DNA of 64,000 bases, from contig NZ_KV813650.1 of NCBI RefSeq assembly GCF_001813675.1, positions 119,373 to 183,372 on the forward strand. The letters run 5' to 3'. Below, one piece after another: positions 28,629 to 36,701 of this stretch. The notes under the pieces are model-generated. The model did not search any database and was not told the origin of the DNA. It saw only the letters and a program-made list of their open reading frames with translations. Within the stretch, counting starts at the first letter, position 1. Every line of letters starts with the position of its first letter. The stretch is from Streptococcus sp. HMSC078D09 (GTDB lineage Bacteria > Bacillota > Bacilli > Lactobacillales > Streptococcaceae). The position numbers and the translations under genes are program-made.

Positions 28629-29840
28629 ATGTCAAAATTTAAACGCATGCACTTAGTTGTGCTGGATTCAGTTGGGATCGGTGCTGCACCAGATGCCAAT
28701 AACTTTGTCAATGCAGGTGTTCCAGATGGAGCATCTGATACTTTGGGCCACATCTCTAAAACCGTTGGCTTAAATGTACCAAACATGGCCAAAATCGGTC
28801 TTGGAAATATTCCTCGTGAAGTACCATTGAAGACTGTGCCAGCTGAAAGCAACCCAACTGGGTATGCAACAAAATTGCAAGAAGTCTCTCTTGGGAAAGA
28901 CACCATGACTGGTCACTGGGAAATCATGGGGCTCAACATTACAGAACCTTTTGATACCTTCTGGAATGGTTTCCCTGAAGAAATTATCACAAAGATTGAA
29001 GAGTTCTCAGGCCGTAAGGTCATCCGTGAAGCTAACAAACCTTATTCTGGTACAGCGGTCATCGATGACTTTGGACCACGTCAAATGGAAACTGGCGAGT
29101 TGATCATTTATACATCAGCTGACCCAGTTCTTCAAATCGCAGCTCACGAAGACATCATTCCTTTGGATGAACTCTACCGTATCTGTGAATACGCTCGTTC
29201 CATCACTTTGGAACGTCCAGCTCTTCTTGGGCGTATCATTGCCCGCCCTTATGTTGGGGAACCAGGCAACTTCACACGGACAGCCAACCGTCGTGACTTG
29301 GCTGTTTCACCATTTGCGCCAACTGTTTTGGATAAGTTGAACGAAGCGGGTATCGATACCTATGCAGTTGGTAAGATCAACGATATCTTCAACGGAGCTG
29401 GTATCAACCACGATATGGGCCACAACAAATCAAACAGCCATGGTATGGATACCTTGATTAAGACCATGGGACTTCCTGAATTCCAAGAAGGCTTCTCATT
29501 TACCAACTTGGTAGACTTTGATGCTCTTTACGGTCACCGTCGCAATGCTCACGGCTACCGCGATTGCTTGCATGAATTTGACGAACGCTTGCCAGAAATC
29601 ATTGCAGCCATGCGTGAAGATGACCTCTTGATGATCACTGCAGACCACGGGAATGACCCAACCTATGCTGGTACAGACCATACGCGTGAATACATCCCAT
29701 TCTTGGCTTATAGCCCATCCTTCAAGGGCAATGGTGTGATTCCAGTCGGACATTTCTCTGATATCTCTGCGACAATTGCAGATAACTTTGGTGTTGAAAA
29801 AGCCATGATCGGTGAAAGCTTCTTAGACAAATTGAACTAA
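28629..29840 (+). CDS. deoB: Phosphopentomutase
   Basis: A 403-residue alkaline-phosphatase-superfamily enzyme that converts (deoxy)ribose-1-P to (deoxy)ribose-5-P. The catalytic region is near the N-terminus ([12 protein letters not shown]). Metal ligands come from the C-terminal [21 protein letters not shown] and from INHDMGHN. It passes the product of nucleoside phosphorylases (punA and deoD, downstream) to rpiA and glycolysis. GAAAGAGG precedes ATG 28629. Confidence 0.97.
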
Positions 29841-29841
29841 G

Positions 29842-30387
29842 ATGACACGCTTCGCTCTCCTCGTAAGAGGGATCAATGTTGGCGGGAAAAACAAGGTCGT
29901 GATGGCAGAGCTTCGAGAGGAGCTCCAAACGATCGGGCTGGATGGGGTAGAGACCTACATCAATAGTGGCAATATCTTCTTTGAATCTGCTAGTTCTAAA
30001 GCAGAATTGGTAGATTTGCTGGGACATTTCTTTCGTGATCACTATCCCTTTATCCAGTCTTTTTCTCTCTTTTCAGCTGAGGACTATGCGCAAGATCTCG
30101 CTGCTCTACCAGGATGGTGGCAGGAGGATCTGGCCCGCAAGGATGTTCTCTTTTACACAGAAGGCCTCAATCAGGATGCTGTCTTGGAGCTGGTCTCCTC
30201 TTTTTCGCTCGGTGATGAAATCATCCATCGTGGGAATCTAGGGATCTACTGGGGCAAATACTCAGAAGAAACCTATACAAAGACCGCTTACCACAGACAA
30301 GTCCTCAAGATGCCGGATTACCGTCTGTTGACCATTCGCAATGCCAATACATTTGACAAAATTGGCCAATTTTTAAGGAAATCATAA
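29842..30387 (+). CDS. DUF1697-family protein
   Basis: A 181-residue cytoplasmic protein with the family opening ALLVRGINVGGKNKVVMAELRE and YINSGNIFFES, and the C-terminal NANTFDKIGQFL. Function is unknown. It begins one base after the deoB stop, without its own clear ribosome site, so translation is coupled. Its conserved place between deoB and punA suggests a nucleotide- or sugar-related role, but this is inference. Confidence 0.85.
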   Translation: MTRFALLVRGINVGGKNKVVMAELREELQTIGLDGVETYINSGNIFFESASSKAELVDLLGHFFRDHYPFIQSFSLFSAEDYAQDLAALPGWWQEDLARKDVLFYTEGLNQDAVLELVSSFSLGDEIIHRGNLGIYWGKYSEETYTKTAYHRQVLKMPDYRLLTIRNANTFDKIGQFLRKS

Positions 30388-30399
30388 AGGAGATATGCA

Positions 30400-31209
30400 A
30401 TGACATTATTAGCAAAAATCAATGAAACAGCTGCTTTTTTGAAAGGCAAAGGAATGGAAGCACCTGAGTTTGGCTTGATCCTTGGATCAGGTCTTGGAGA
30501 ACTGGCTGAAGAAATCGAAAATGCCGTCGTAGTAGACTACTCTGAAATTCCAAACTGGGGTCGTTCAACGGTTGTCGGCCATGCTGGTAAATTGGTCTAC
30601 GGTGATCTTGCTGGACGTAAGGTTTTGGCCCTTCAAGGACGTTTCCATTTCTACGAAGGAAACCCATTAGAAGTGGTGACTTTCCCAGTTCGTGTTATGA
30701 AAGTTTTGGGCTGTGAAGGGGTTCTTGTTACCAATGCTGCTGGTGGTATTGGCTTTGGTCCAGGTACTTTGATGGCCATCACAGACCACATCAATATGAC
30801 TGGTCAAAACCCATTGATCGGTGAAAACTTGGATGACTTTGGTCCACGTTTCCCAGATATATCGAAAGCTTACACACCTGAATACCGTGAGACAGCTCAT
30901 CAAGTAGCAGACAAATTGGGTATCAAATTGGATGATGGGGTTTATATCGGTGTGACAGGTCCTACTTATGAAACTCCAGCTGAAATCCGTGCGTTTAAGA
31001 CTCTTGGTGCAGATGCTGTCGGAATGTCAACCGTTCCTGAAGTCATCGTTGCAGCGCATTCTGGCTTGAAGGTTCTTGGTATTTCATGTATTACCAACTT
31101 TGCGGCTGGTTTCCAAGAAGAGCTCAACCACGAAGAAGTAGTGGAAGTGACAGAGCGCGTCAAGGGAGACTTCAAAGGATTGCTAAAAGCGATTCTTGCT
31201 GAACTCTAA
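30400..31209 (+). CDS. punA: Purine nucleoside phosphorylase (trimeric type)
   Basis: A 269-residue phosphorylase that splits (deoxy)guanosine and inosine into base and pentose-1-P. Motifs include LILGSGLGEL (phosphate site), STVVGHAGKLVYG, LQGRFHFYEG, TNAAGGI and GVYIGVTGPTYETPAEIRAFK. AAGGAGA precedes ATG 30400. A second phosphorylase of the hexameric type (deoD) lies downstream, giving complementary substrate ranges. Confidence 0.95.
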   Translation: MTLLAKINETAAFLKGKGMEAPEFGLILGSGLGELAEEIENAVVVDYSEIPNWGRSTVVGHAGKLVYGDLAGRKVLALQGRFHFYEGNPLEVVTFPVRVMKVLGCEGVLVTNAAGGIGFGPGTLMAITDHINMTGQNPLIGENLDDFGPRFPDISKAYTPEYRETAHQVADKLGIKLDDGVYIGVTGPTYETPAEIRAFKTLGADAVGMSTVPEVIVAAHSGLKVLGISCITNFAAGFQEELNHEEVVEVTERVKGDFKGLLKAILAEL

Positions 31210-31213
31210 TCCA

Positions 31214-32449
31214 ATGAAAGTACGACTCCAAAGGCTGCCCTACGGACTGAGGTTGCTTCTAGCCACCTTATCATTAGGGATCGGGACAGGTCTGGTCGGC
31301 ATTGCCTATCATTATCTACTGGAAGGGGTGCAAGGGCTGGCCTTTGGCCAAGATACATCGGATTTGCTCCAGCAATTTCAAGAAGCTGGAGGTCTCCGTA
31401 GATTTTTGGTCTTATGTGTGACTGGGTGCTTGGCAACTGGCTTCTGGTATGTCCTGCAAAAGCGTTATAAGATCCTGTCTATTCGCCAGCAAATTGACTT
31501 AGCTGGAGACAGGGAACCAGCGCCCTTAGCCCACCTCCTTCATGCAGGGATGCAGGTGGCAATTGTTGGAGCAGGCGCATCGGTCGGAAAAGAAGGAGCC
31601 CCACGTGAGGTCGGGGCTCTTCTAGCTGGTCGCTTGGCGAAGGGATTCTCACTAGCCCTCAAAGAGCGAAAAGTCTTGATCGCCTGTGGTGCTGGAGCTG
31701 GTTTGGCTGCGGTCTATCAGGTTCCCTTTGCCAGTAGCTTGTTTGTCTTTGAGACCTTAGGGCTCGCATACAGTTGGCAGAACTTTCTACTGGTTTTGAC
31801 CAGTACTTATCTGGCCACCTGGGTCGCTCAGCCCATCGTTGGTCAGGAGGCCATTTATCAACTGTCCGCTGTCTCATGGTCGGCTAGCAGTTTTTTACAG
31901 GCTATTGTGATTGCTTTCTTGGTCACTCCCTTGGCTCTGGTCTTTGCTTTCCTCGCCAAGCGGGCTAGTCACAAACGGCGGAAGGATAGGACAATTCTTT
32001 GGGCTCTTCCTCTAGCCTTTCTAGTGCTGGGGAGCCTAGTAGCCTTTTTCCCCATCTTTATGGGAAATGGCCAGGTACTAGCACAAGCCCTCTTGTCTAG
32101 CCAGTCGATTCCTTATCTTCCACTGACTCTTGCAGTGAAGGGGCTTCTGGTTTATCTCCTCTTGCGCAATGGTGCCTATGGGGGAACCTTGACACCATCA
32201 TTTGCCTTAGGAGTTGGATTTGGCTACCTAGTGACCTTGCTTTTGACAGTCCTTGGGATTCATCTGGATCCAGCTATAGGGATGTTACTAGGAGCGACCG
32301 TCTTTTTAGGAACGACCTTAAAAGCTCCTCTGACAGCCATTGCCCTGAGCCTTGGATTTACAGGTCAAACTTGGAGTTTGACAATCCCGCTTGTACTTGC
32401 GGCTGGTCTGTCTTACGTGATTCGAAAGAGATGGGAGAAGAAACGATGA
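31214..32449 (+). CDS. CLC-family chloride channel/antiporter
   Basis: A 411-residue CLC protein with about ten or more helices. GASVGKEGAP (residues 121-130) carries the gating-type Glu127, and PFASSLFVFETL and GGTLTPSFALGVG are later conserved helices. It differs from the CLC-F at 13893 and is more likely a chloride/proton transporter. ATG 31214 lies five bases after the punA stop without a visible ribosome site, so coupled translation is likely. A TTG at 31196 would overlap punA. Confidence 0.85.
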   Translation: MKVRLQRLPYGLRLLLATLSLGIGTGLVGIAYHYLLEGVQGLAFGQDTSDLLQQFQEAGGLRRFLVLCVTGCLATGFWYVLQKRYKILSIRQQIDLAGDREPAPLAHLLHAGMQVAIVGAGASVGKEGAPREVGALLAGRLAKGFSLALKERKVLIACGAGAGLAAVYQVPFASSLFVFETLGLAYSWQNFLLVLTSTYLATWVAQPIVGQEAIYQLSAVSWSASSFLQAIVIAFLVTPLALVFAFLAKRASHKRRKDRTILWALPLAFLVLGSLVAFFPIFMGNGQVLAQALLSSQSIPYLPLTLAVKGLLVYLLLRNGAYGGTLTPSFALGVGFGYLVTLLLTVLGIHLDPAIGMLLGATVFLGTTLKAPLTAIALSLGFTGQTWSLTIPLVLAAGLSYVIRKRWEKKR

Positions 32450-33156
32450 AGGTACATTTTGTACTGCATGAAACATTTGAAGTGCCGGGCGCTTATCTAA
32501 AATGGGCACAGGAGCGTGGCCATCAAGTGACCACGACTAAAGTCTATGAGAATGAAGCCCTACCAGAGACAGTGGATGAGATCGACTTTTTGATCGTCAT
32601 GGGAGGACCTCAATCGCCAGATGAAGATCGGGAAACTTTTCCATACTACGATCCTCAGGCAGAGATCGAGTTGATTCAAAAAGCCATGAAGGCAGATCGT
32701 TATATTGTTGGGGTCTGTCTGGGGGCGCAGCTCCTGTCTGTTGCCTATGGTGCGAAGTATGACCACAGTCCGGAACGTGAGATTGGGGTTTATCCTGTGA
32801 CCTTGACGCCTGAAGGACTGACAGATCCACATGTCGGTGAGTTTGGAAAAACTCTTGAAACTGGTCACTGGCATGGTGATATGCCCGGATTGACAGAAGA
32901 TGCTGTTGTTCTTGCGACCAGTCAAGGGTGTCCGCGTCAGATTATTCGCTTTAGTCCGAAACATTATGCCTTCCAAGCCCACTTGGAATTTGATCCAGAA
33001 GCAGTTGATCTCTTGATTGCTGCTGACGGTGAAGAAGTTTTGGAAGAACAAAGTCAAAACCTGACCTTTGTTCAAAAACCTGAAGCCATTCGTGCTTACG
33101 ATTATCGAGAAATGAATACCAAACTCTTTGCGTTTTTGGATTCATTAACAAATTAA
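32446..33156 (+). CDS. Class I glutamine amidotransferase-like protein
   Basis: A 236-residue single-domain GATase-1. Cys91 in GVCLGAQ is the nucleophile and the later AHLEFDPE supplies the His/Glu pair. MGGPQSPDE marks the oxyanion strand. Free-standing members of this family resemble GMP synthase glutaminase domains, and some hydrolyse gamma-glutamyl bonds; the substrate here is unknown. The ATGA overlap with the CLC gene shows translational coupling. Confidence 0.85.
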   Translation: MKVHFVLHETFEVPGAYLKWAQERGHQVTTTKVYENEALPETVDEIDFLIVMGGPQSPDEDRETFPYYDPQAEIELIQKAMKADRYIVGVCLGAQLLSVAYGAKYDHSPEREIGVYPVTLTPEGLTDPHVGEFGKTLETGHWHGDMPGLTEDAVVLATSQGCPRQIIRFSPKHYAFQAHLEFDPEAVDLLIAADGEEVLEEQSQNLTFVQKPEAIRAYDYREMNTKLFAFLDSLTN

Positions 33157-33179
33157 ATAAAAAAGAAAGGATGGGTTTA

Positions 33180-33288
33180 CCGTATTCGCTGAACTGAATA
33201 CGGGCGGAGAACTGTGTAAAAAAGATAAACTGTCTAGCATCTGCGATGCGTCGTCAGTTTCCTATTTTTACTTTGTTCTCTGTCGCCC
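33180..33288 (+). ncRNA. Structured leader of deoD
   Basis: A perfect hairpin, CCGTATTC-8 nt-GAATACGG (33180-33203), is overlapped at its foot by an 87-nt long hairpin (33202-33288). Nested pairs in the long hairpin are GGGCG/CGCCC, AGAAC/GTTCT, GTAAAAA/TTTTTAC, AAACTG/CAGTTT and GCATC/GATGC. A related core occurs before parC at 59726. No known riboswitch class was recognised. Confidence 0.6.
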
Positions 33289-33302
33289 TTTATATCTTAA
33301 TT

Positions 33303-34013
33303 ATGTCTATCCATATTGCTGCTAAGCAAGGTGAAATTGCTGATAAAATTCTTCTTCCTGGGGATCCTCTTCGTGCGAAATTTATTGCTGAGAATTTCCT
33401 TGAAGATGCTGTTTGCTTCAACGAAGTCCGTAACATGTTTGGTTACACAGGTACTTATAAAGGTCACCGTGTTTCTGTCATGGGTACTGGGATGGGGATG
33501 CCATCGATCTCTATCTATGCGCGTGAGTTGATTGTCGACTACGGTGTGAAGAAATTGATCCGTGTGGGAACGGCTGGTTCTTTGAATGAGGATGTGCATG
33601 TTCGTGAATTGGTCTTGGCGCAAGCTGCTGCAACCAACTCAAACATCATCCGCAACGACTGGCCTCAATACGATTTCCCTCAAATCGCTAGCTTTGATCT
33701 TTTAGACAAGGCTTATCACATTGCCAAAGACCTTGGCATGACGACCCACGTTGGCAATGTTTTGTCATCAGATGTTTTCTATTCAAACTATGGTGAAAAG
33801 AACATCGAGCTTGGTAAATGGGGTGTAAAAGCTGTAGAAATGGAAGCAGCGGCTCTTTACTATCTTGCGGCTCAACACCATGTGGATGCCCTTGCTATCA
33901 TGACGATTTCAGACAGTTTAGTTAATCCAGATGAGGACACAACTGCTGAAGAACGTCAAACTACTTTCACAGACATGATGAAAGTTGGTCTTGAGACCTT
34001 GATTGCAGACTAA
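33303..34013 (+). CDS. deoD: Purine nucleoside phosphorylase (DeoD, hexameric type)
   Basis: A 236-residue DeoD, active on adenosine as well as inosine and guanosine. Motifs include [54 protein letters not shown] and [14 protein letters not shown] with the catalytic Asp. ATG 33303 matches the family N-terminus ([15 protein letters not shown]), though no Shine-Dalgarno site is visible before it. An earlier in-frame start at 33246 lies inside the structured leader. The next gene starts at the stop (TAATG). Confidence 0.95.
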
Positions 34014-34780
34014 TGGCAACATTCCTTCATGATGAATGGCTCTACGATCTCCAAAATTATCACTACAGCCGGGCTCTGCGCTCTATTAAGCAACAGGAAG
34101 AAGTACCGGATTTGTTGGTAAGTTTACTGCAGTTAATGGCGGAGCGTCGAGAGCTCAATATCCAACCCGTCATGAATCAAAAGTTGAGAACCGAGTTGCT
34201 AGAGGCGACTGGTTTTCAGCTTTTTTGGCATGAAGATCCAGAAGACGAGCAGTTGGCCAACTACCTTTATGACTTAGAGGCGAAGTTGCGAAATGAGCAG
34301 ATTATTGACTTTGTTCGTGCCGTTAGCCCAGCCATCTATCGGATCTTTATGCGATTGATTCAGTTGAAAATTCCTGATATTACCAACTATATTCATAACT
34401 CCAAAGAATCCAGTTATGACCGTTGGAAATTTGAGAGCCTGCATGCGTCTGACAACCCTATCCTGCAGCAATTCCACAGCGAAAGTGTGGTCAATTCCTC
34501 CAGTTTGACGGAGTTGATTGTGCAGTTGGACTTACCAGATAGCGTCAAAGTTGCGGCCCAACAATTGCGGGAGTTAGAAAAATCAGTTCGCAATCCCCTG
34601 GCCCATTTGATCAAGCCCTTTGATGAAGAAGAGCTCCATCGGACGACGGGTTTCTCTTCTCAGGATTTTATGAAGAATTTGATTGACCTTGCAAGCTACA
34701 CAGGTATTCATTATGATCAAGCTGACTTTTATTTTGATCAGGCCAATGCTGTGATGGAAGAGCTACTAAAGGAGAAGTAG
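34013..34780 (+). CDS. Stand-alone HEPN protein resembling the Csm6 RNase half
   Basis: A 255-residue all-helical soluble protein. Arg193-Asn-Pro-Leu-Ala-His198 is an Rx4-H motif, the catalytic pair of HEPN ribonucleases. The opening LYDLQNYHYSRALRSIKQQ resembles the start of the HEPN region in Csm6, the type III CRISPR accessory RNase. There is no room for a CARF sensor domain: deoD ends one base into this gene (TAATG). The sirtuin gene starts immediately after its stop. No CRISPR array or csm gene is in the window. RNase activity and Csm6 ancestry are inferred from motif and fold pattern. Confidence 0.6.
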   Translation: MATFLHDEWLYDLQNYHYSRALRSIKQQEEVPDLLVSLLQLMAERRELNIQPVMNQKLRTELLEATGFQLFWHEDPEDEQLANYLYDLEAKLRNEQIIDFVRAVSPAIYRIFMRLIQLKIPDITNYIHNSKESSYDRWKFESLHASDNPILQQFHSESVVNSSSLTELIVQLDLPDSVKVAAQQLRELEKSVRNPLAHLIKPFDEEELHRTTGFSSQDFMKNLIDLASYTGIHYDQADFYFDQANAVMEELLKEK

Positions 34781-35512
34781 ATGGATAAGATTGCTCAACT
34801 ACAGGAGATGATTGATCAGAATCAACGGATTGTGTTTTTCGGAGGGGCAGGAGTTTCCACGGAGTCAAATATTCCAGATTTTCGAAGCTCAGACGGTGTC
34901 TATAGTGTTCAGGTAGGGCGGCATTTGACAGCTGAGCAATTGGTCTCCCATACCATGTTTGAGCGCTATCCAGAGGATTTTTTCGACTTTTACAAGAAGT
35001 ACTTGCTCTACCCAGATGCCAAACCCAATGCTGCCCATCGCTATCTGGCTTGGCTTGAAGAGACCGGTAAACTCAAGGCGGTGGTGACACAAAATATTGA
35101 TAGTCTCCATGAAATGGCTGGTTCTAAAAAAGTTTTGAAGCTCCATGGCAGTGCCGACCGCAATTACTGTACGGGTTGCCAGCGATTTTATGATTTGGAG
35201 GCCTTTCTAGCTTTGGAAGGCCCGGTTCCACACTGTCTGGACTGTGGCAAGGTGGTCAAGCCTGATGTGACCCTCTACGAGGAGCCTCTCGATATGGACG
35301 TCTTTTGCCAAGCAGCCCAAGCCATCCAAGAGGCTGATATGCTGATTATCGGTGGAACCTCTCTCGTGGTCTACCCAGCAGCCAGCTTGATCCAGTATTT
35401 CCAAGGGAAGAAGCTGGTTGTCATCAATAAAACCAGTATCCCACAAGACAAGCAAGCAGACCTAGTTATCGAAGGAAAAATTGGCCAAGTATTTTCACAA
35501 TTAAGACCATAA
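34781..35512 (+). CDS. Sirtuin, NAD-dependent protein deacylase
   Basis: A 243-residue Sir2 protein. The NAD-binding motif is GGAGVSTESNIPDFRS (residues 22-37) and TQNIDSLHEMAG follows. HGS carries the catalytic His, and a Cys4 zinc site is formed by CTGC and CLDC. It removes acyl groups from lysines while consuming NAD. AAAGGAG precedes ATG 34781. It directly follows the HEPN gene, with no gap, and ends the salvage operon at a strong terminator. Confidence 0.93.
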   Translation: MDKIAQLQEMIDQNQRIVFFGGAGVSTESNIPDFRSSDGVYSVQVGRHLTAEQLVSHTMFERYPEDFFDFYKKYLLYPDAKPNAAHRYLAWLEETGKLKAVVTQNIDSLHEMAGSKKVLKLHGSADRNYCTGCQRFYDLEAFLALEGPVPHCLDCGKVVKPDVTLYEEPLDMDVFCQAAQAIQEADMLIIGGTSLVVYPAASLIQYFQGKKLVVINKTSIPQDKQADLVIEGKIGQVFSQLRP

Positions 35513-35550
35513 AAAATATCTGAGTGAACATGGATCACTCAGATATTTTT
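35511..35550. terminator. Bidirectional terminator between the sirtuin gene and cpsY
   Basis: Perfect stem AAATATCTGAGTGA / TCACTCAGATATTT with A and T tracts on both sides. Confidence 0.9.
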
Positions 35551-36458
35551 TACTTATCAAACTTCACTTCCTCAAGCAAGTACTCGATGAATTTTTCTCC
35601 CATTTTTGAGAGGGCTGTTTTTTCATGTTTGATGTAGACCAGCTCGATTGGGTCTTCGATATCAAGGGGAATGGAGACGATGTTATTCCCGTTGAGATTG
35701 CTGTTAAGGATCCCGGTCGCAATGGTGTAGCCATCCAGACCAATCAAGAGATTAAAGAGGGTCGCCCGGTCACTGACGACGATGGATTTCTTATGATGCT
35801 CTTGAGAGAGGATCTCTTCTGAGAAGTAGAAGGAGTTGTGGGTTCCTTGGTCATAGCTAAGGTATGGGAAATCTTCCAGATCAGACAAGTGAACGATCTC
35901 TTTCTTGGCAAGGGGATTGGTCTTGCTGACAAAGATATGAGGTTGCGCTGTAAAGAGGTGGGTGGCAATCAGGTGATTATCATCCAGCATCTTAGAGAGG
36001 ACATCTCGGTTGTAGCTATTCAAAAAGAGTACGCCAACTTCGCTTCGGAAATTCTTGACGTCATCGATGATCTCCCAAGTCCGCGTTTCCCGTAGGAAGA
36101 GCTCGTATTTTTCCATGTCGCTTTTCTTCAATAGTGAAACGAATGCCTCAACCACGAAGGCGTAGTGCTGTGAAGAGACACTGAAAAGCTCACGAGAACC
36201 CACAGGATTTTTATAGCGCTCGGACAAGAGGTCGATCTGCTCCACCACCTGGCGGGCATAAGAGAGGAACTCCATCCCATCGCGTGTCAAAGTGATCCCT
36301 TTGGGATTTCGGATAAAGATTTCAATTCCCATCTCATTTTCCAAGTCCTTAACGGCATTGGAAAGGCTAGGTTGCGTGATGAAGAGTTGTTTTGCGGCCT
36401 CATTCATAGAGCCGGTTTCGACGATTTTGATAATGTATTGTAATTGTTGTATTCTCAT
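35550..36458 (-). CDS. cpsY: LysR-family regulator CpsY
   Basis: A 302-residue LysR protein. An N-terminal winged helix (MNEAAKQLFITQPSLSNAVKDLENEMG) is followed by a linker helix and a periplasmic-binding-like co-inducer domain. It closely resembles streptococcal CpsY/MetR-type regulators, which control methionine supply, surface and immune-evasion genes. Product identity is by overall resemblance. The gene is convergent with the sirtuin gene. No divergent target is adjacent, the next gene being 243 bp away on the plus strand. Confidence 0.85.
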   Translation of the reverse strand: MRIQQLQYIIKIVETGSMNEAAKQLFITQPSLSNAVKDLENEMGIEIFIRNPKGITLTRDGMEFLSYARQVVEQIDLLSERYKNPVGSRELFSVSSQHYAFVVEAFVSLLKKSDMEKYELFLRETRTWEIIDDVKNFRSEVGVLFLNSYNRDVLSKMLDDNHLIATHLFTAQPHIFVSKTNPLAKKEIVHLSDLEDFPYLSYDQGTHNSFYFSEEILSQEHHKKSIVVSDRATLFNLLIGLDGYTIATGILNSNLNGNNIVSIPLDIEDPIELVYIKHEKTALSKMGEKFIEYLLEEVKFDK

Positions 36459-36701
36459 GCTTTTATTTTAACATAAAAGAGCGCGTTTTTCCCGTAAAAT
36501 GTGGTCTTTCAAGGACTGTATCAGAGAATAAGACAGGCTGAGGGAGGTAATAGAAAGTAGGCCAGATCAAATATTTAAAAAATAGAAAATTGGGAACAAA
36601 ATCTCCATCTGGGGACTGATTTTGATGGAAAAATACAGTTTTGCCTTGCTGAAAGGGAGATCCGATTGATAGAATGGTAAAAAATTGATTGAGGAGATCT
36701 T

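Follow-up and report, generated by a model that had tools for sequence, protein, structure and literature searches.

A Csm6-type HEPN protein without a CARF sensor, encoded behind deoD in Streptococcus

A stretch of 64,000 nucleotides from Streptococcus sp. HMSC078D09 (assembly GCF_001813675.1, contig NZ_KV813650.1, positions 119,373 to 183,372 of the forward strand; hereafter the window) carries, directly behind the purine nucleoside phosphorylase gene deoD, a gene for a protein of 255 amino acids (aa), here called the HEPN gene. We report that its product is the 6H+HEPN half of a Csm6-type protein without the CARF sensor. With moderate confidence, we regard this protein as a likely domesticated single-stranded RNA (ssRNA) endonuclease; in place of the cyclic-oligoadenylate switch, its dose would control it, probably through translational coupling to deoD. 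The protein type is already known from a crystal structure; what is new is a mostly CRISPR-independent lineage linked to housekeeping genes in two families. The features on which the argument turns are as follows.

33246..34013, plus strand: deoD, purine nucleoside phosphorylase (PF01048, E 2.5e-44; stop TAA at 34011-34013)
34011..34015, plus strand: TAATG, in which the deoD stop and the HEPN start overlap, without a Shine-Dalgarno (SD)-like word ahead of it (from the sequence)
34013..34780, plus strand: HEPN gene, CARF-less Csm6-type 6H+HEPN protein, 255 aa (open reading frame, domain and structure comparisons)
34013..34237, plus strand: N-terminal part of about 75 residues, resembling the helical 6H part of Csm6 (TIGR02672 match from residue 13; 8pe3 alignment)
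34238..34771, plus strand: HEPN part, about residues 76-253 (PF09659 over residues 76-247)
34589..34606, plus strand: RNPLAH (R193-N-P-L-A-H198), the HEPN catalytic motif R-x4-6-H (sequence and alignments)

The protein matches PF09659 (Cas_Csm6_HEPN) with an E value of 1.5e-22 and 80.8 bits, the gathering cut-off being 23.4. It also matches TIGR02672 (csm6) with 107.2 bits, below the curated equivalog cut-off of 150, and does so at model positions 194-433 of 433, so that only the region beyond CARF is covered; the Csm6 and CARF_HEPN models of PADLOC are likewise matched by the C-terminal part only. Because the TIGR02672 alignment lies wholly past CARF, and because the bases in front of the ATG are codons of deoD, the protein has no CARF domain. 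The predicted structure model is a HEPN fold, and its residues 1-253 align with residues 177-386 of 8pe3, so the 6H+HEPN half is present; in 8pe3, 6H comprises residues 174-239 (PMC10702470; papers are cited here and below for the accessible portions of their text). Within the motif, R193, N194, P195, A197 and H198 are invariant in 40/40 aligned streptococcal sequences, and two wider alignments, which include Csm6 of CARF-bearing size, retain R, N and H in 74/74 and 73/73 rows. Further conserved patches in the 40 streptococcal sequences are ERRELN (44-49), D87, D99-F100, R102 and V104-S105-P106. An earlier note, made from the sequence alone, had described a Csm6-like HEPN half without CARF and an Rx4-H motif at Arg193 and His198; the domain matches, the predicted fold and the invariance of the motif bear out both.

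Among solved structures, only 4RGP, annotated as S. mutans 'Csm6_III-A', is close in sequence (E 4.5e-68); a search of the Protein Data Bank (PDB) with a profile built from 40 streptococcal sequences gave no other entry at E values up to 0.1. 4RGP is basically the same protein as that of the window. Its label implies a role in type III-A CRISPR systems, which the streptococcal contexts studied here do not bear out, 4RGP's own genome context not being among them. SMU_1232c was considered as the S. mutans counterpart and dropped, since a passage in the literature calls it a DUF1697 protein, hence another gene. In a comparison of 4RGP with TtCsm6, a metal-independent ssRNA endonuclease, Niewoehner and Jinek describe SmCsm6 as lacking a CARF domain; TtCsm6 without residues 1-190 retains full-length activity (PMC4748810). 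This laboratory truncation, like the window's protein, is 6H+HEPN alone, but it is artificial, whereas the streptococcal form is natural and selected. The Csm6 proteins of III-A (StCsm6', EiCsm6, SeCsm6 and TtCsm6) have a CARF domain that reads cyclic oligoadenylate and belong to type III systems, whereas the window's protein has no CARF and its genome no Cas10. In HEPN-MNT toxin pairs the adjacent gene encodes a nucleotidyltransferase antitoxin, whereas the genes adjacent to the HEPN gene score as PNP_UDP_1 and SIR2, and no nucleotidyltransferase antitoxin occurs among its scanned neighbours. We take 5yep (SO_3166-SO_3165) to be such a HEPN-MNT pair. No description of a deoD-linked CARF-less HEPN arrangement was found in the accessible text of the literature searched, subscription papers lying outside that search.

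The stable streptococcal partner of the HEPN gene is deoD, not the sirtuin gene that follows it in the window. In the 50 named Streptococcus loci compared (L and G numbers below are our labels for loci and genomes), deoD lies upstream in 50/50, and the HEPN start falls -14 to +2 bases from the deoD stop in 46; the exceptions are L030 and L032, with about 0.8 kb between the genes, and L015 and L048, which gave no start. Another 29 loci (L052-L080, some perhaps from the same species) fit this placement in 28 cases, L072 giving no start. TTG was chosen as the HEPN start by the script in 15 loci, where a nearby ATG lies at -8 or +1 except in L042. In the window, the A of the HEPN ATG (34013-34015) is the last base of the deoD stop TAA, and the HEPN stop TAG (34778-34780) is followed at the next base, 34781, by the sirtuin ATG; the earlier note had read these same two junctions. 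An SD-like word was found in 4/39 distinct HEPN upstreams, versus 14/15 sirtuin upstreams. The HEPN gene is under purifying selection: of 15 pairs compared by the Nei-Gojobori method, 12 have a ratio of nonsynonymous to synonymous substitution (dN/dS) of 0.045-0.175, four of them with dS above 1, and the other three are saturated.

A domesticated RNase, one of the possibilities raised by the earlier note, is the best-supported reading, given the conserved motif, the purifying selection and the housekeeping address, with the activity itself predicted. Two chains would pair through 6H and HEPN as in Csm6 and form one composite R-N-x-H active site, which would cut ssRNA without a cyclic-oligoadenylate signal. 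Ribosomes that end deoD may re-initiate on the HEPN gene and thereby supply a small, constant dose; the role would be host RNA turnover, or restraint of growth or phage at a low level.

Several points weigh against this proposal. The chief warning comes from StCsm6', which is inactive until its activator is bound (PMC10702470), so a copy without a sensor could be silent, and the accessible text of the literature searched gave no report of activity for this protein. PF09659 has no match in 154 of 284 streptococcal genomes, and broken copies occur, L015 and L048 having no full frame and G015, G045 and G166 having stops inside the PF09659 match. The frames of the HEPN gene are split in G200. Because so many genomes have no match, and because copies in single genomes are disrupted, short or split, the gene is dispensable and can be lost. 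A specific tie to purine salvage is unsupported, because the Aerococcaceae, which have a parallel CARF-less Csm6-type lineage, keep it beside murA-rho, not deoD. The MSIHI start of deoD itself has an SD-like word in only 9/41, which makes the SD word test a rough one. Finally, several branches of the trees described below are long, and the tree program warns of long-branch joins.

An unlikely alternative to a domesticated RNase at constant dose is a silent defence effector, an RNase held off and then freed on phage infection by some trigger or partner, with dormancy or abortive infection as the outcome. HEPN RNases, among which Anantharaman 2013 lists that of Csm6 (PMC3710099), and Csm6 itself (PMC4748810) serve defence, and the activator-dependence of StCsm6' fits such a scheme, as does the HEPN gene that precedes a III-A locus in 7/284 genomes with the sirtuin alone between them. 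Against this stands the distribution of the gene. PF09659 matches 130/284 streptococcal genomes, 129 of them above its cut-off, and 0/14 control genomes, while Cas10/Csm1 exceeds its cut-off in 17/284, with nine further weak matches; because all 17 lie within the 130, 113 of the 130 have no Cas10 above cut-off. In 10 of the 17, the PF09659 matches listed sit in frames of 309-437 aa, which represent csm6 from III-A loci; none of these listed matches is a CARF-less frame. The window's own genome (G000) gave no Csm1/Cas10 match in a search aimed at type III, other CRISPR types not being searched; the absence of a nearby CRISPR locus, as claimed by the earlier note, thus holds for type III. Searches of phage and plasmid sequences found no match to the HEPN protein at the sensitivities used, the plasmids having none for full Csm6 either, and IMG/VR contigs gave none to exact peptide patterns, which distant relatives would escape. 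A mobile or phage origin of the gene was dropped on these searches, which also tell against a defence effector. So do the linkage to housekeeping genes in two families, a dN/dS of 0.05-0.18, and deoD as the sole constant neighbour in streptococci.

It is improbable that the protein is catalytically retired and keeps its fold to bind RNA or a partner instead of cutting. Its cutting activity is predicted, and the conserved patches beyond the motif could be binding surfaces. Yet no aligned row departs from R, N and H, and replacement of Arg415, Asn416, His422 or Glu332 in TtCsm6, which include the matching residues, almost wholly removes activity (PMC4748810).

The remaining two alternatives concern the downstream neighbourhood, which comprises the following.

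34768..34774, plus strand: AAAGGAG, SD-like word of the sirtuin gene, within the end of the HEPN gene (from the sequence)
34781..35512, plus strand: sirtuin, NAD-dependent protein deacylase, a neighbour and not an obligate partner of the HEPN gene (NF001752, 337.5 bits versus a cut-off of 221)
35509..35553, no strand assigned (scored on the minus strand): 19-pair terminator-like hairpin with a T run, lying where the sirtuin and LysR genes converge
35550..36458, minus strand: LysR-type regulator, the far edge of the deoD-LysR interval (open reading frame; the L081 counterpart scores as LysR-type)

By number alone, the hairpin is weak, two terminator-like sites having been found versus 2.2 expected from shuffles. 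At the other end, the conserved MSIHI start would put the start of deoD at 33303; in the leader before it (33160-33303) the frame is open upstream of MSIHI, and similar upstream residues occur in L155. An Rfam scan of window positions 29000-36700, the deoD leader included, gave no match above the gathering score.

The earlier note had likened the HEPN gene and the sirtuin to a HEPN-Sir2 defence pair, in which the two would act together, and the zero gap in the window as well as the sirtuin behind the HEPN gene in 30/50 named loci seem to favour it. In the other 20, the sirtuin was not found in the stretch covered; these cover mutans-, bovis- and pyogenic-type species. Conversely, of the genomes without PF09659, 37 were searched for deoD, which was found in 37/37, and about 1.5 kb downstream was covered at 30 loci. 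Six of these 30 keep a sirtuin about 150-235 bases behind deoD without the HEPN gene, and a lenient tblastn search of these six found no convincing HEPN remnant between deoD and sirtuin. Because each gene occurs without the other, they are separable. In addition, the sirtuin scores as an ordinary NAD-dependent deacylase and weakly versus defence sirtuin models (best E 3.2e-4). The pairing was rejected on the separate occurrence of the genes, and we consider it highly improbable.

The cargo between the sirtuin or HEPN gene and LysR is mixed in the 14 relatives inspected; judged by eye, that of L002, L007, L012, L015, L024, L026, L032, L040 and L046 includes parts of ABC transporters, membrane-anchored proteins, an insertion sequence transposase and a RelB-like antitoxin. 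Because the cargo is mixed, the interval up to LysR represents a variable slot and no clear defence island. In S. thermophilus, deoD adjoins an exopolysaccharide cluster, according to the accessible text of two papers (PMC6951406, PMC5282782).

In eight genomes, the deoD-LysR interval holds a III-A locus (L081-L087 and L095, in G020, G024, G019, G199, G191, G193, G195 and G239, respectively). Seven of them (L081-L087) have the order deoD, HEPN gene, sirtuin, cas1, cas2, cas6, cas10, csm2-csm6, LysR, with families checked in L081, and in G239 (L095) the III-A locus occupies the interval without HEPN gene or sirtuin. Repeat arrays lie between cas2 and cas6 in the three loci inspected. In the remaining nine genomes with Cas10, the 11-20 kb examined contain no deoD and no LysR gene. 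Within single arrays, the copies of the repeat differ strongly from one another in L081 (from 5706), L085 (from 6200) and L087 (5994-8094). L087 (G195) has tandem csm6 genes, and its effector genes from cas10 through csm5 share about 46-61% identity with their L081 counterparts. The cas1, cas2 and cas6 of L087, on the other hand, resemble those of L081 as closely as the L085/L086 copies do (70-80%), a pattern that looks like an effector-module swap within one CRISPR locus.

As csm6 comes last in these eight loci and adjoins LysR, one deletion reaching from cas1 through csm5 and taking the CARF-encoding half of csm6 as well would yield the observed arrangement, and an origin as such a III-A stump was proposed before the trees were made. 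Tree 1 has 74 rows and 200 columns, with 24 streptococcal and 17 of 19 Aerococcaceae (f4) CARF-less rows chosen and duplicates dropped. It supports a streptococcal group (99/98) and an Aerococcaceae group (100/98) and joins both (97/91), with the CARF-bearing Csm6 of L145 inside and 31 other CARF-size Csm6 apart (100/97). Tree 2 (73 rows), made after adding six Csm6 from other Bacillota and removing seven near-copies, again recovers both groups (99/99 and 100/100) and places them on the same side as the added Csm6, the streptococci joining L145 (89/92) and the Aerococcaceae joining L187 (72/51). The L145 protein matches TIGR02672 along its whole length (299.5 bits). Its gene (551-1888 in L145, G505) lies beside what appear by eye to be ribose-transport genes, with no csm genes among the open reading frames of the 6 kb inspected and a contig end near; the protein joins the streptococcal CARF-less proteins on a long branch.

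Forcing the streptococcal group together with the Csm6 of six same-site III-A loci is rejected (approximately unbiased (AU) p 0.00023 and 7.8e-6), the branches between them being supported at 100/97 and 100/100, and in a profile comparison the streptococcal set stands at 98.5% with the Aerococcaceae CARF-less set versus 62% with 14 CARF-size Csm6. The local deletion is therefore rejected and retains almost no credibility; the III-A loci share a landing site with the HEPN gene in the deoD-LysR interval but did not give rise to it. The trees favour descent from a CARF-bearing Csm6 through loss of CARF, and because a single clade of both CARF-less groups is not rejected (AU p 0.34 and 0.285), one loss and two losses are both compatible.

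Csm6 is commonly viewed as an RNase kept off until a CRISPR alarm, and a natural CARF-less form raises the questions of its activity in the cell and of how it is tolerated. Many streptococci, and Aerococcaceae as well, conserve this form, and most of the streptococcal genomes that carry it, the ones surveyed for Cas10, have none above cut-off. An annotation as 'Csm6' on short proteins of this kind, as in the PDB label of 4RGP, is thus not evidence of type III CRISPR. We tentatively suggest that streptococci and Aerococcaceae shed the sensor of Csm6, perhaps in separate events, and tied the sensor-less RNase to deoD or murA-rho, respectively, as a constitutive enzyme, with the streptococcal dose set by stop-start re-initiation, so that a CRISPR accessory may have passed into core RNA metabolism. 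These proteins offer a natural test case of CRISPR effectors turned housekeeping enzymes.
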